Positions 2,594 to 32,905 of a stretch of DNA of 64,000 nucleotides are shown here, piece by piece (position 1 is the first letter of the stretch; each line of letters starts with the position of its first letter). Source of the DNA: Alloiococcus otitis ATCC 51267 (lineage in GTDB: Bacteria; Bacillota; Bacilli; Lactobacillales; Carnobacteriaceae_A); assembly GCF_000315445.1 (NCBI RefSeq), contig NZ_JH992958.1:302579-366578 (forward strand), written 5' to 3'. The notes under the pieces are model-generated. The model was not told the DNA's origin and made no database searches. It saw nothing but the letters and a program-made list of their open reading frames with translations. The position numbers were made by a program, and so were the translations under genes.

Positions 2594-3442
2594 ATGTCCC
2601 AGCAGGCTATCTCGGTCCTGGTTTCTTTTGATGAAAATTATATCCCACCCTTTAAGACCATGTTTTACTCCCTCATCCAAAACAATCCAGACCAAGCTTT
2701 TAAACTATGGCTATTACACCAACAGGTTAGCGAGTCAGCCCTTGAAGAAATCCGATCATACTGCCAAGACCTGGGAGCTGACTTTCAGGCCATTAAGGTC
2801 AAGGACCAGGATTTTCAAAATGCGGCTGTCACCAACCGCTACCCACGTGAAATGTACTTTAGACTTCTAGCCCCCTTTATCCTGCCAGCTGATTTGGGCC
2901 GGGTCCTCTACCTGGACCCAGATATTTTGGTGATTAACCGGATTGAAGAGCTTTGGCATACCGACTTGGCGGGTAATTGCTTTGCGGCAGCCTCCCACAA
3001 GGGCTTTACAGATATGGTGGGCGGGATTAACCGGGTCCGCTTGCAGACTGAACATGATTATTTCAATACAGGGGTTATCTTGATGGACTTGGACCGGGCC
3101 CGCCAGGTAGTTGACCCGGATGAGATCTTTGCTGCCGTCAACAAGTTCGACAAGCTTCTGCTCTTGCCCGACCAAGACATCTTCAACCACCTTTACGGCA
3201 AGCACACCAAGCTATTGGCCGAAGAAAAATGGAACTACGATACCCGCAAATACACCCGCTATTACCTAAAAAGCGACCAAGAATACACCCCCGAGTGGAC
3301 GGCGCAAAACACAGCCATCCTCCACTTCTGCGGCCGGGACAAGCCTTGGGAGTCGACCAAGTTTACTGGTTTTGTCCTCTTATACCAACACTATGACCAG
3401 GCCCGGCAGCAATTTGAAAAAGAGCGAAAAATAAAAGCATAA
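2594..3442 (+). CDS. Glycosyltransferase family 8 protein
   Basis: This 282-residue soluble enzyme has the GT8 fold signatures: an N-terminal nucleotide-sugar region (ISVLVSFDENY), a DxD metal-binding motif at about residues 106-110 (YLDPDILV), FNTGVILMDL in mid-protein, DQDIFN near 195 and a C-terminal HFCGRDKPW box. GT8 enzymes transfer glucose or galactose from UDP-sugars in a retaining reaction, in Gram-positives usually onto lipooligosaccharides, teichoic acids or glycoproteins. The acceptor cannot be read from the sequence. It stands alone and is followed by a strong terminator. AAGGAA precedes the ATG. Confidence 0.88.
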   Translation: MSQQAISVLVSFDENYIPPFKTMFYSLIQNNPDQAFKLWLLHQQVSESALEEIRSYCQDLGADFQAIKVKDQDFQNAAVTNRYPREMYFRLLAPFILPADLGRVLYLDPDILVINRIEELWHTDLAGNCFAAASHKGFTDMVGGINRVRLQTEHDYFNTGVILMDLDRARQVVDPDEIFAAVNKFDKLLLLPDQDIFNHLYGKHTKLLAEEKWNYDTRKYTRYYLKSDQEYTPEWTAQNTAILHFCGRDKPWESTKFTGFVLLYQHYDQARQQFEKERKIKA

Positions 3443-27844: not shown

Positions 27845-28128
27845 AAGATGAAAATTGACTTCCTAGAAGAGATAAGTACAAGATTGAATCCTTTGTAAAG
27901 AGAGCTCTGCTTGGTGAGATGGAGTAAAGGATGGCCTTGGAAAATGGTCTCTGAGAAGCTAACTGATGAGCCTTGGCGAGTTGGTTACGTTTGAACAAGC
28001 GTTACTTTGTTGGCACTGATAGGTGTTGTAGAGATAGCATGAGCAATTGTGCTATAAGTCAAGGTGGTAACACGACTAAGATTTTAGCGTCCTTGTAGCT
28101 GGTTTAACCAGCTACAAGGATTTTTTTA
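27845..28128 (+). ncRNA. T-box leader 1, methionine specifier
   Basis: Stem I element AGAGAGCTCTGCTTGGTGAGA, specifier region GAAA-ATG-GTCTCT-GAG (27937-27954), T-box core AAGGTGGTAACACG at about 28060-28073 and a terminator in which TCCTTGTAGCTGG pairs with CCAGCTACAAGGA followed by seven T (28088-28128). The specifier reads AUG, for tRNA-Met. Confidence 0.88.
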
Positions 28129-28149
28129 TAGGGATAAAAACCAAAAGTG

Positions 28150-28386
28150 AGTAAGTTATTACCCGCTTGACAGAGAGCTTACACTCGGTGAAAGTAAGCA
28201 AGTAGGGTTAACTGAACATGGCTTTTGACATAGGTTTAATGGTTGAGCAAAAAGCAAGACCATTACGGGGACACCGTTATCAAGAGGAGTTCTTAACTCT
28301 AGAGGGGGAATTATATCCAAACAAGGTGGTAACGCGGCACTGTCGTCCTTAATTAAACAAGTGGTTTAATTAAGGACTTTTTTTAT
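28150..28386 (+). ncRNA. T-box leader 2, methionine specifier
   Basis: A second complete T-box follows the first: stem I AGAGAGCTTACACTCGGTGAAA, specifier GAAC-ATG-GCTTTT-GAC (28213-28228), core AAGGTGGTAACGCGGC at about 28323-28338 and a terminator GTCCTTAATTAAAC/GTTTAATTAAGGAC with a T tract (28344-28386). Two terminators in series must both be overcome by uncharged tRNA-Met before metN is transcribed. Confidence 0.88.
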
Positions 28387-28582: not shown

Positions 28583-29683
28583 ATGATCGAGCTGAAGGAC
28601 ATTGATGTTCATTTCCAATCAGATGAGCATGTCATCAAGGCGGTGAAAGGAGTTAGTTTAAAAGTAGATAAGGGGGACATATATGGGGTGGTTGGCTACA
28701 GCGGGGCCGGCAAGTCAACCCTGGTCCGGACTATCAATCTCTTGCAAAAGCCAACCAATGGCAGCGTCCGGGTGAATGGCCAGGACATGCTGGATTTATC
28801 AGCCAGTGAGTTGCGGGCAGCCCGCAAAAAAATTGGCATGATCTTTCAGCACTTCAACCTGATGAATGCCCGGACGGTAGCAGGCAATATCTTATATGCC
28901 TTACGGTCGTCTGACTTATCCAGGGAAGAAAAGCAAACCAAGGTCACCGACCTACTAGAATTGGTAGACTTGGCCGACAAGCATGATTCCTATCCCTCCC
29001 AGCTATCTGGTGGGCAAAAGCAGCGGGTAGGGATAGCCAGAGCCTTGGCCAATGACCCAGAAGTCCTCTTGTGTGATGAAGCAACTTCGGCTCTAGACCC
29101 CAAGACGACCACGGATATTTTAAAGCTTTTGAAACAGTTGAACCAGGAATTGGGCTTGACCATTGTCTTGATTACTCACGAGATGGACGCCATCAAGGAA
29201 ATTTGCAACAAGGTAGCCGTCATGGGAGACGGGGAAGTGGTTGAACGGGGGGACATTGTTAAGATCTTTACTGAACCGGAGAACCCCCTAACCCAGGAAT
29301 TCATCAACACAGCCCTTGGGATTGACCAGGCCTTGGAGAAATTGAGCCGGCAGGAGACCGTGATGAACCTGACCAACAAGGACCAGATTGCCCAGTTGAC
29401 CTTTAAGCAGGGGAGTGCTGGTCAGCCTTTTACCAAGGAAGTTTATGAGCGTTATGGCATTTCAACCAATATTATCTACGGGAATGTTGAGATTTTAAAT
29501 GGAGACTACATCGGGAACCTGATTGTCATCTTTACAGGGGACGATGAGAGTTTGCAGGAGTCTTACCGCTACTTAGAAGAAAACCATGTGACAGTTGGCT
29601 TGTTGGAACATGTCAAAGACGGGGAAGAATACAAGCTAATCCCTCGTAGTGACATTGGTTCAGAGGAAGGAGATACAGAATGA
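28583..29683 (+). CDS. metN: Methionine ABC transporter ATP-binding protein MetN
   Basis: A protein of 366 residues: an ABC ATPase domain with Walker [11 protein letters not shown]-loop [12 protein letters not shown], signature [15 protein letters not shown], Walker [13 protein letters not shown] and switch His in ITHEMD; then a C-terminal NIL regulatory domain (from about residue 260; [20 protein letters not shown]) that binds methionine and inhibits transport. It energises uptake of methionine, probably both L- and D-forms. GAAGGGAGA precedes the ATG. The tandem Met T-boxes upstream and metI/metQ downstream confirm the assignment. Confidence 0.96.
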
Positions 29684-30384
29684 CCCTACTTGCAATTTCT
29701 GATATTATTGAGCAGCTTTTGCCCTACTCAAGTGAAATACCAGAACGTTTTGTCGAAACCACGATCGAGACCTTGTACATGACCTTGGTGACCGCTGTGA
29801 TTGCGGGGGCCTTGGGGATTATTTTAGGGGTGACTTTGACCGTGACCCACAAGGGCAATATCTTAGACAACCGCTATGTTTACAAGATCTTGGAGAATAT
29901 TATCAATATCCTCCGGTCCATTCCTTTCATTATTATGCTGGCCTTGATCTACCCGGTCACCCGGGCCATTGTGGGGACCACCATTGGGACCACAGCGGCC
30001 ATTGTCCCCCTTGTGGTGGCCACTGTTCCTTTCTATGCCAAACAGGTGGAGTCCGCCCTCTTGGAAGTGGATGATGGGATTGTCGAAGCAGCTGAGGCTA
30101 TGGGGACCAGTCCAGTTGGCATTATCTTCTCAGTCTACCTCAAGGAAGGCCTGCCCAGTCTCTTGCGGGTATCCTCTGTTACCATTGTCAGTTTGATTGG
30201 GACCACCACTATGGCCGGTGCTGTTGGTGGGGGCGGTTTAGGGGACCTAGCCATCACCCGGGGCTATAACCGTTTCCAACACGACGTTACCCTGGTTTCG
30301 ACCTTGATTATTATGGCCTTTGTCTTTATTAGTCAAGGGATCGGCAACTATTTTGTCAACAAAACCAGTCATAAGAATAAGTAA
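29680..30384 (+). CDS. metI: Methionine ABC transporter permease MetI
   Basis: A membrane protein of 234 residues with five predicted spans and the MetI-type permease core: [40 protein letters not shown] and the ATPase-contacting [15 protein letters not shown] loop, then [18 protein letters not shown]. It forms the transmembrane channel with MetN. Its ATG overlaps the metN stop (ATGA), showing translational coupling. Confidence 0.95.
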
Positions 30385-30416: not shown

Positions 30417-31244
30417 ATGTCATATAAAAAACTACTATTAACCCTTGTCAGTGCAGGAAGTTTATTTGCCCTATCCGGCTGTGGCAGCCAAGCAGATGAA
30501 GTGGTCCGTGTGGGCGTGATTGGAGAAGACCACGAGGACTGGGAATTCGTCCAAGACAAGGTGGCTGACCAGGGAATAGACTTGGAATTAGTAACATTTT
30601 CGGATTACTCCCAGCCCAACCGTGCCTTAGACGACGGGGATATCGACCTCAATGCCTTCCAGCACCGGATTTTCTTGGATAACTTTAATGAAGAATTCGG
30701 AACCAATATCGTCCCTATTGCCGATACAGCTATTGCCCCTTTAGGGATTTACTCGGAAGAAGTTCAAGATGTTTCAGAGATTGGTGAAGGGGCCGAAATT
30801 GCCATCCCTAACGATGTCACCAATGGGGGCCGGGCCTTGGTCTTGCTCCAGTCAGCCGGCCTTATCGAAGTGGATCCAGATGCGGGGATCCTGCCTTCAA
30901 CAGATGATATCACAGACAACCCCTTGAACCTGGAAATCACCGAACTGGATGCCTCCCAAACAGCTCGTTCCATTGGGGATGTGACCGCAGCTGTTATCAA
31001 CTCTGGTATTGCCGTGGATGCCGGTTACATCCCAGATGAAGATGCTGTTTTCTTAGAGCCCGTTGACGAAAATTCAGAACCTTATATCAACGTTATTGCA
31101 GCTAATGAAGGCGATGAAAGAGAATCCTTCGACATCATTGTGGATGCTTACCAGTCTGAAGATACCCTGGAAGTCATCAATGAGGCCAGTGAAGATTCCG
31201 TAATTGTCGTCTGGGCTGAAGATGGCTATGAATTTTCTGAATAA
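30417..31244 (+). CDS. metQ: Methionine-binding lipoprotein MetQ, copy 1
   Basis: A protein of 275 residues with a lipoprotein signal (KKLLLTLVSAGSLFALSGC, lipobox LSGC) and the NlpA/MetQ substrate-binding fold: VVRVGVIGEDHEDW, VADQGIDLELVTFSDYSQPN, DIDLNAFQHRIFLD, AEIAIPNDVTNGGRALVLLQ and a C-terminal YQSEDTLEVIN. It captures methionine outside the membrane and delivers it to MetNI. AAAGGAG precedes the ATG. It is the first of three metQ-like genes in a row; its C-terminal three quarters are nearly identical to copy 2 at both DNA and protein level. Confidence 0.95.
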   Translation: MSYKKLLLTLVSAGSLFALSGCGSQADEVVRVGVIGEDHEDWEFVQDKVADQGIDLELVTFSDYSQPNRALDDGDIDLNAFQHRIFLDNFNEEFGTNIVPIADTAIAPLGIYSEEVQDVSEIGEGAEIAIPNDVTNGGRALVLLQSAGLIEVDPDAGILPSTDDITDNPLNLEITELDASQTARSIGDVTAAVINSGIAVDAGYIPDEDAVFLEPVDENSEPYINVIAANEGDERESFDIIVDAYQSEDTLEVINEASEDSVIVVWAEDGYEFSE

Positions 31245-31275
31245 GTCCTGTTTGTCAGGCAGGAGAGATAATGGG

Positions 31276-32013
31276 ATGAAAAAGAGTGTTAGGAGCTCTA
31301 CTGATATCTGGGAGGAAGTCGCCGACAAGGTAGCGGACCAGGGAGTGGATTTGGGAGTTGTGACCTTTTCCGACTATGTCCAGCCCAACCGTGCCTTAGA
31401 TGAGGGGGATATTGATCTCAATGCCTTCCAAACCCGAATTTTCTTGGATAGCTTCAATGAAGAATTTGGATCCAATATTGTCCCTATTGCCGACACCGTC
31501 ATTGCCCCCTTAGGGATTTACTCAGAAGAAGTCCAAGATGTTTCAGAGATTAGTGAGGGCGCTGAAATTGCCATTCCTAACGAGGTCTCCAATGAAGGCC
31601 GGGCCTTGGTCTTGCTCCAGTCAGCCGGCCTTATCGAAGTAGACCCGGATGCGGGGATCTTGCCTACAACAGATGATATCACAGACAACCCCTTGAACCT
31701 GGAAATCACTCAACTGGATGCCTCCCAAACAGCTCGTTCCGTTGGGGACGTCACAGCTGCTGTTATCAATTCTGGCATGGTAGTGGATGCTGGCTATAAA
31801 CCAAACGAAGATGCCATATTTTTAGAGCCCGTTGACGAAAATTCAGAACCCTATATCAACGTTATTGCAGCCGATGAAGGCGATGAAAGAGAATCCTTCG
31901 ACATCATTGTGGATGCCTACCAGTCCGAAGATACCTTGGAAGTCATCAATGAGGTCAGTGAGAACTCCGAAATTGTCGTCTGGGCTGAAGAAGGTTACGA
32001 GTTTTCTGAATAA
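31276..32013 (+). CDS. MetQ-like protein, copy 2, without signal peptide (probably degenerate)
   Basis: About 245 residues. The protein starts MKKSVRSSTDIWEEVADKV and lacks the hydrophobic signal, the lipobox Cys and the first strand (the GVVGDAS region) present in copies 1 and 3. From there to VTFSDYVQPNRAL it matches copy 3; from DIDLNAFQTRIFLD to the end it matches copy 1. It is thus a mosaic with a deletion of about 85 bases inside the signal-coding part, compared with copy 3. An RBS-like AGGAGA and an ATG remain, so a cytoplasmic product is possible, but it cannot be a normal lipoprotein. No internal stop interrupts it. Confidence 0.8.
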   Translation: MKKSVRSSTDIWEEVADKVADQGVDLGVVTFSDYVQPNRALDEGDIDLNAFQTRIFLDSFNEEFGSNIVPIADTVIAPLGIYSEEVQDVSEISEGAEIAIPNEVSNEGRALVLLQSAGLIEVDPDAGILPTTDDITDNPLNLEITQLDASQTARSVGDVTAAVINSGMVVDAGYKPNEDAIFLEPVDENSEPYINVIAADEGDERESFDIIVDAYQSEDTLEVINEVSENSEIVVWAEEGYEFSE

Positions 32014-32044
32014 GTTAGGTTTGTTAGTAAAGGGAGATGGTGGA

Positions 32045-32905
32045 ATGAAAAAGAAAATATTGGGAGCTCTAGCAGCCTTGTCCTTGTTTTCGCTAGCGGG
32101 CTGCCAAAGTAGCCAGGCGGAAGAGCACTTGAAAATTGGTGTAGTGGGCGATGCCTCAGCTGACATCTGGGAGGAAGTCGCCGACAAGGTAGCGGACCAG
32201 GGGGTGGACTTGGAAGTTGTCACCTTTTCCGACTATGTCCAGCCTAACCGGGCCTTAGCTGATGGGGACATAGATTTAAATGCCTTCCAACATTTGGCCT
32301 TCTTGAAGGAATACGTGGAAGATTCGGGAGATGACTTTGTCCCGGTGGGATATACCGCTATTTCGCCTACCTTTGTCTTTGCCGTCGAGGGCATTGATAG
32401 TCCCGAAGACATTCCTGAGGGGGCTTCTGTTGCCATTCCCAACACGGTGACCAATGCTGAGCGGTCTTTCCTAGCCTTACAAGACCTGGGCCTCTTGGAA
32501 TTGGACCCAGAGGCGGGGTCTGCCCCGACCGTCGATGATATTGAAGAGGTCAAGCATGGCCTGGAAATTGTGGAGTTAGACCCCCAACAAGTGGCCCGGG
32601 CCTTGGGAGATACAGACCTAGCCATTATCGGGTCCCAGCAGACTGTGGATGCCGATTATGACCCCCAAGACGCCATCTATAATGATGTAGAAGACAGCGA
32701 CCGGGAAGTTGACCCGCTAAAGAAAAATGCCATTGTCACCCTAAGAGACCGGCAAGACGACCCAGCCATCTTAAAGGTGGTAGACGCCTACCAGAGTGAT
32801 GACATTAGCCAACTAGTCGTTGATGTGACGGCCGATCTAGTAGCCTGGGAAGAAGGCGATGACCCCATTGGTGACTTTGACCGTGCCTTAGAGGAAGATC
32901 GGTAA
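32045..32905 (+). CDS. Methionine-binding lipoprotein MetQ, copy 3
   Basis: A protein of 286 residues. Lipoprotein signal MKKKILGALAALSLFSLAGC (lipobox LAGC), then the MetQ fold: LKIGVVGDASADIWEEVA, DIDLNAFQHLAFLKEYVED, VAIPNTVTNAERSFLALQDL and LAIIGSQQTVDADYDP. The C-terminal half diverges clearly from copies 1 and 2, so its ligand preference may differ (for example methionine sulfoxide or a methionine-containing peptide; this is a guess from the divergence). AAAGGGAGATGG precedes the ATG. A terminator closes the operon after it. Confidence 0.92.
   Translation: MKKKILGALAALSLFSLAGCQSSQAEEHLKIGVVGDASADIWEEVADKVADQGVDLEVVTFSDYVQPNRALADGDIDLNAFQHLAFLKEYVEDSGDDFVPVGYTAISPTFVFAVEGIDSPEDIPEGASVAIPNTVTNAERSFLALQDLGLLELDPEAGSAPTVDDIEEVKHGLEIVELDPQQVARALGDTDLAIIGSQQTVDADYDPQDAIYNDVEDSDREVDPLKKNAIVTLRDRQDDPAILKVVDAYQSDDISQLVVDVTADLVAWEEGDDPIGDFDRALEEDR

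Follow-up and report, generated by a model that had tools for sequence, protein, structure and literature searches.

The middle metQ of a methionine operon in Alloiococcus otitis: evidence for a crossover origin, a convergent pocket switch and a recent loss of the export signal in a probable early pseudogene

Copy 2, the middle one of three adjacent metQ genes in Alloiococcus otitis ATCC 51267, is likely to be an early pseudogene, born by a crossover between its neighbours, kept for long under constraint while its binding pocket underwent a convergent switch, and only recently deprived of its 5' end. All positions refer to the window, which is the whole stretch of 64,000 nucleotides that was analysed. 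The gene order is methionine T-box, metN, metI, metQ1, metQ2 and metQ3, and in profile searches the three copies belong to the Lipoprotein_9/NlpA family (PF03180). The best matches of metN (ABC_MetN, TIGR02314, 375 bits) and metI (NF008049, 180 bits) fall below the respective cut-offs of 499.7 (curated) and 212. The features considered are the following:

28134..28353, + strand: T-box leader 5' of metN, with AUG (Met) at the specifier as reported from the alignment (Rfam RF00230, 99.5 bits)
28345-28377: terminator-like stem after the T-box
28583..29683, + strand: metN, methionine ABC transporter ATPase with a NIL domain (TIGR02314, PF00005 and PF09383)
29680..30384, + strand: metI, methionine ABC permease (NF008049, PF00528)
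30417..31244, + strand: metQ copy 1, intact lipoprotein of 275 aa (PF03180, 260 bits; AF2 pLDDT 89)
31245..31275, + strand: spacer 1-2, with a Shine-Dalgarno-like AGGAGAG (pairwise alignments)
31276..32013, + strand: metQ copy 2, leaderless chimera of 245 aa with an ATG start (PF03180, 249 bits, profile match starting at position 10)
31276..31300, + strand: leftover in copy 2 of a copy-3-like signal sequence (ATGAAAAAGAGTGTTAGGAGCTCTA; alignment with 32045-32071)
about 31300/31301: deletion junction in copy 2
31301..31420, + strand: 5' coding part of copy 2, from copy 3 (DNA identity, dS, site labels)
31432..32013, + strand: remainder of copy 2, from copy 1 (dS 0.44 and dN/dS 0.12 to copy 1)
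31432..31434, + strand: T53 codon in copy 2, where copy 1 has His; first residue of the pocket switch
31588..31596, + strand: S105-N106-E107 codons in copy 2, where copy 1 has TNG; second and third residues of the pocket switch
32045..32905, + strand: metQ copy 3, intact older paralogue of 286 aa with lipobox LAGC (PF03180, 192 bits)

A strong terminator-like hairpin (28089-28121) lies immediately 5' of the T-box leader. The same genome holds three more MetQ-like genes (G000:C1:334995-335723, G000:C2:252375-253100 and G000:C2:454046-454696), the first and the last of which each adjoin their own metN/metI-like genes.

The sequence-only reading, which preceded this analysis, held that copy 2 lacks the signal peptide, the lipobox and the first β-strand, and on this the start of the profile match, the gap at the lipobox column and the structural model all agree. 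Indeed, copy 2 aligns to positions 10–235 of the 236 of PF03180 (cut-off 27 bits), the alignments of copies 1 and 3 beginning at position 1. Of 53 aligned MetQs, 49 have the lipobox cysteine and three others, which keep a hydrophobic leader, have serine or threonine in its place; a gap at this column together with the lowest N-terminal hydrophobicity is found in copy 2 only, for which this hydrophobicity comparison revealed no hydrophobic leader. The ribosome-binding-like site (AGGAGAG, 31261-31267) and the open frame that had been pointed out are also present, with the ATG at 31276 being followed by 245 codons in which no stops or frameshifts were found. Two other readings of this region were discarded: an upstream TTG start at 31204 would add 24 residues that are another frame of copy 1 and form no hydrophobic leader, and a frameshift fusion of copies 1 and 2 was considered and dropped, as no positive sign of it was seen.

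The 5' deletion that had been proposed stands, but its size is not the suggested 85 bases or so, since the net loss in respect to copy 3 amounts to 90 nt (30 codons): the distance from the ATG to the common motif CTGA(C/T)ATCTGG is 115 nt in copy 3 and 25 nt in copy 2. In the best alignment copy 2 retains GGAGCTCTA of the former signal sequence and has deletions of 2 nt and 88 nt, either of which alone would break the frame, which both together keep; an alternative in which both losses are in frame (84 and 6) is possible but aligns less well, the choice between the two having been made by eye. A loss of this kind could also be created in the assembly, if repeated spacer and leader sequences had collapsed in the draft, which comprises 1.8 Mb in 8 contigs, and the adjoining copies do resemble each other in their spacer and start sequences. 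However, beside the site about 11% of the DNA positions differ between copies 2 and 3, which makes a collapse unexpected, and what is left of the leader in copy 2 does not have the sequence of copy 3; we thus regard an assembly or sequencing error as improbable.

The consequences for the fold were evaluated in AF2 models. The model of copy 1 contains strands at residues 28–35 (strand 1) and 54–61, and that of copy 2 has lost strand 1 through the deletion and leaves the second strand (its residues 24–31) unformed, so that the complete two-lobe fold including strand 1 seen in copy 1 is not attained. In type II binding proteins, strand 1 occupies the centre of its sheet. The overall fold match remains, with a comparison to 6cva yielding Z 26.4 and an rmsd of 1.9 over 232 aligned residues, and the Z scores against MetQ structures drop modestly (for 4ntl, from 28.8 to 26.4).

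The mosaic composition that had been noticed, with an N-terminal part resembling copy 3 and a remainder resembling copy 1, is evident both from the identities and from the informative sites. From the W codon to the DLNAFQ codons the protein of copy 2 is 93% identical to copy 3 and 83% to copy 1, and past DLNAFQ it is 89% identical to copy 1 and 39% to copy 3, the informative sites resembling copy 3 at first and copy 1 thereafter, with the change lying between about 31410 and 31434. Over 31296-31431 the DNA identity to copy 3 is 89%, and the 5' coding part has a dS of 0.39 and a dN/dS of 0.11 to that copy; given the dS values of 0.39 and 0.44 to the respective donors, the two halves of copy 2 appear to be of the same age. 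The spacer that separates copies 1 and 2 is homologous, in pairwise alignments, to that between copies 2 and 3 (32014-32044) and not to the metI-metQ1 spacer.

What has to be abandoned is the notion of a fresh triplication, as copy 3 is a long-diverged paralogue (48% identity) which in the protein tree forms a clade of its own with the second copy of a related genome, G006 (support 100/99), copy 2 being sister to copy 1 (100/100). This relative has the arrangement metN-metI-Q1-Q3, devoid of the middle copy, and since in the tree its Q1 falls with copy 1 and its Q3 with copy 3, copy 3 falls outside any recent triplication. By sequence, then, the paralogy of copies 1 and 3 is old, and the two are adjacent in a related genome too. 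The wider search for related loci returned only two genome contigs, both distant, and no viral contigs; Fundicoccus was the nearest named relative found, which points to the Lactobacillales and probably to the Aerococcaceae. Copy 3 and its G006 relative (L067:7556-8320) make up a long-branched MetQ clade with an HTA pocket and an extended C-terminal tail, which was seen in no other genome read.

Recombination between neighbours, as had been put forward, can be refined to one unequal crossover of copies 1 and 3 followed by the 5' deletion. A single event of this type fits copy 2 because dS is equal in both halves and the spacer is also duplicated, and we infer that an unequal crossover of Q1 and Q3 inside the conserved GATCTCAATGCCTTCCAA stretch would yield exactly the observed arrangement. 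The old neighbours metQ1 and metQ3 would in this way have given rise to a third lipoprotein gene, endowed with the leader and N-terminus of copy 3 and the body of copy 1. The mosaic could instead have been produced by gene conversion of an older Q2 with both its neighbours, an alternative which concerns the origin only and which we judge possible but doubtful. The sites at which copies 1 and 2 differ are spaced unevenly by the sum of squared gaps (P 0.009), although not by the longest identical run (P 0.21), and with one of two measures being positive some, possibly later, conversion tracts may exist; old neighbouring pairs of the two pocket subtypes described below are also found elsewhere (G003, G151). 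One crossover, on the other hand, already accounts for both halves, the equal dS and the duplicated spacer, and copies 1 and 2 are placed together with full support in the protein tree.

After the crossover, the new copy would have evolved under purifying selection. The dN/dS between copies 1 and 2 past the breakpoint, a comparison which the sequence-only reading had proposed, is 0.118. Polarisation with outgroups assigns 6 replacements after the breakpoint to copy 1, 10 to copy 2 and leaves 5 ambiguous, and the excess in copy 2 is not significant (P 0.45); had copy 2 been neutral throughout, about 74 replacements would be expected instead of the 10 observed. Assuming an even split of synonymous changes between the two copies, the unconstrained fraction of the life of copy 2 is estimated at about 0–13% (point estimate), with an upper bound of about 25%. 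Judged from its sequence, copy 2 is a protein that spent most of its existence under constraint (dN/dS about 0.12), and this signal is equally consistent with a recent deletion and with continued selection after an old one.

Among the replacements in copy 2 are H83T, T135S and G137E (copy-1 numbering), by which three pocket residues became those of the other MetQ subtype. In NmMetQ, H100 packs around the methionine thioether within a set of aromatic and histidine residues (Y81, F98, H100, Y103), and R156, N213 and N238 are ligand residues (PMC6739813). According to the reported alignment, H83 of copy 1 corresponds to NmMetQ H100, positions 135 and 137 precede the ligand-binding arginine (R156), and the equivalents of R156, N213 and N238 are kept in copy 2 as R109, N165 and N195. 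Around the thioether, copy 2 retains Y34 and F51, has Thr in place of His, and has Phe at the Y103 position, as does copy 1. Across the 53 aligned MetQs the three positions read HTG in 35, TSE in 13 (copy 2 among them), HTA in 2 and a mixture in 3, copy 1 having an H-type pocket (H83, T135, G137). We have designated as T-subtype, a class defined in this analysis, those proteins with Thr/Ser/Glu at copy-1 positions 83/135/137, a signature which copy 2 carries. With 4 diagnostic columns usable, 3 of 10 replacements would fall on them by chance with a probability of 0.0004, even before the right amino acids are required, but this is a rough guide, as copy 2 had already been seen when the columns were chosen.

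Three changes or more are needed to place the T label on the tree, and copy 2 does not share ancestry with the main T clade; since it is sister to an H-type copy (100/100), its pocket signature is convergent. The T state represents a working subtype and not damage, because tandem pairs of a Thr and a His copy exist (G003, G151, G190, G372) and because in G008, G011, G014, G017 and G019 the only close MetQ beside metNI is of the T-subtype. The loss of the histidine was therefore no longer read as evidence of decay, given that intact MetQs have this Thr too, along with Ser and Glu. This pocket switch, which the sequence-only reading had overlooked, suggests that copy 2 was once a functional, diversified protein, probably an exported binding protein for the shared MetNI with an altered ligand preference. 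The coupled His/Thr, Thr/Ser and Gly/Glu switch splits the MetQs of the order into two subtypes, with Thr having arisen more than once, and no account of this triad was found in the open literature searched, which does not prove its absence. The most useful by-product of the analysis is that the subtype signature makes MetQ ligand specificity directly testable; family models would name all such paralogues methionine-binding.

The later loss of 90 nt, net in frame, removed the signal peptide, the lipobox and the first β-strand, and is presumably recent. The body of copy 2 bears none of the stops, frameshifts or relaxed selection that betray a pseudogene; what is found is the loss of an indispensable part, as leader, lipobox and strand 1 are in this family. 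The sequence-only reading had left the choice between decay and a cytoplasmic methionine-binding protein: decay is favoured by the loss of the leader and of strands 1 and 2 and by the fact that no other leaderless MetQ was seen in the relatives examined, and little positive was found for the cytoplasmic binder. Arguing against decay are the intact start and ribosome-binding site, the uninterrupted frame, the deletions of 88 and 2 nt that jointly restore it, possibly a sign that selection preserved the protein, and the high confidence of the modelled body (pLDDT 90), although AF2-type models are biased towards the family fold. The same open frame, ribosome-binding site, net in-frame deletion and low dN/dS, together with the retained polar ligand residues and the two retained aromatic ones, could be taken to indicate a functional cytoplasmic protein, a buffer or sensor of the methionine family kept after leader loss. 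We hold this to be highly improbable: a working cytoplasmic methionine-binding protein is unlikely because the predicted structure loses strand 1 and leaves strand 2 unformed, the selection signal is not assignable to the time after the deletion, and no leaderless relative was seen among the genomes examined. NmMetQ is reported to need lipidation for its interaction with MetNI (PMC8416018), so that a transport role of copy 2 is also unlikely. Very little credence is given to the idea that a MetNI binding protein, its pocket switched and its export signal lost, took on a new role as a cytoplasmic binder translated from the T-box operon that also encodes its exported sisters. In the preferred account of an early-stage pseudogene still free of stops, the present product, if made, would be cytoplasmic, poorly folded and probably non-functional. 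For one bacterial gene copy this would place events in order, from birth by unequal crossover through pocket change under constraint to loss of export.

Other leaderless MetQs were found neither among the relatives read in detail nor, clearly so, in longer homologue lists, and none was found in the open literature searched, which does not prove absence. Two candidates were set aside, a short-looking copy in G026 which lies at a contig end and a leaderless-looking one in G093 which has its leader and is frameshifted instead. In respect to the MetQ/NlpA (PF03180) lipoproteins of MetNI importers, copy 2 has in common the domain body, the ligand-contact residues, the metN/metI operon and the methionine T-box, but lacks the signal peptide, the lipobox and strand 1 and has Thr for the pocket His. 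With the T-subtype MetQs of the Lactobacillales (the first copy of G003, L068; G011, L086; G062, L088) it shares FQT ... SNEGR at the same three positions, whereas these proteins have leaders and form a separate clade. Disabled Thr copies were observed in three tandem arrays, G093, G273 and the window, and no broken H copy was noticed in this small, similarity-chosen sample. In G093 (L100:2982-3818) a pocket-Thr metQ with an intact leader is frameshifted near 3160 next to an H-type copy that is intact, and both metQs of the pair are intact in the related G190 (L103); in G273 (L111:4273-5121) the third metQ of the array, of the T-subtype (FQT, SNEG), carries a single in-frame stop, and is intact in its relative G364 (L112). 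The arrays of G093 and G273 thus resemble the window in that one pocket-Thr copy is disabled, but there a frameshift or a single stop is responsible, whereas copy 2 has lost its leader.
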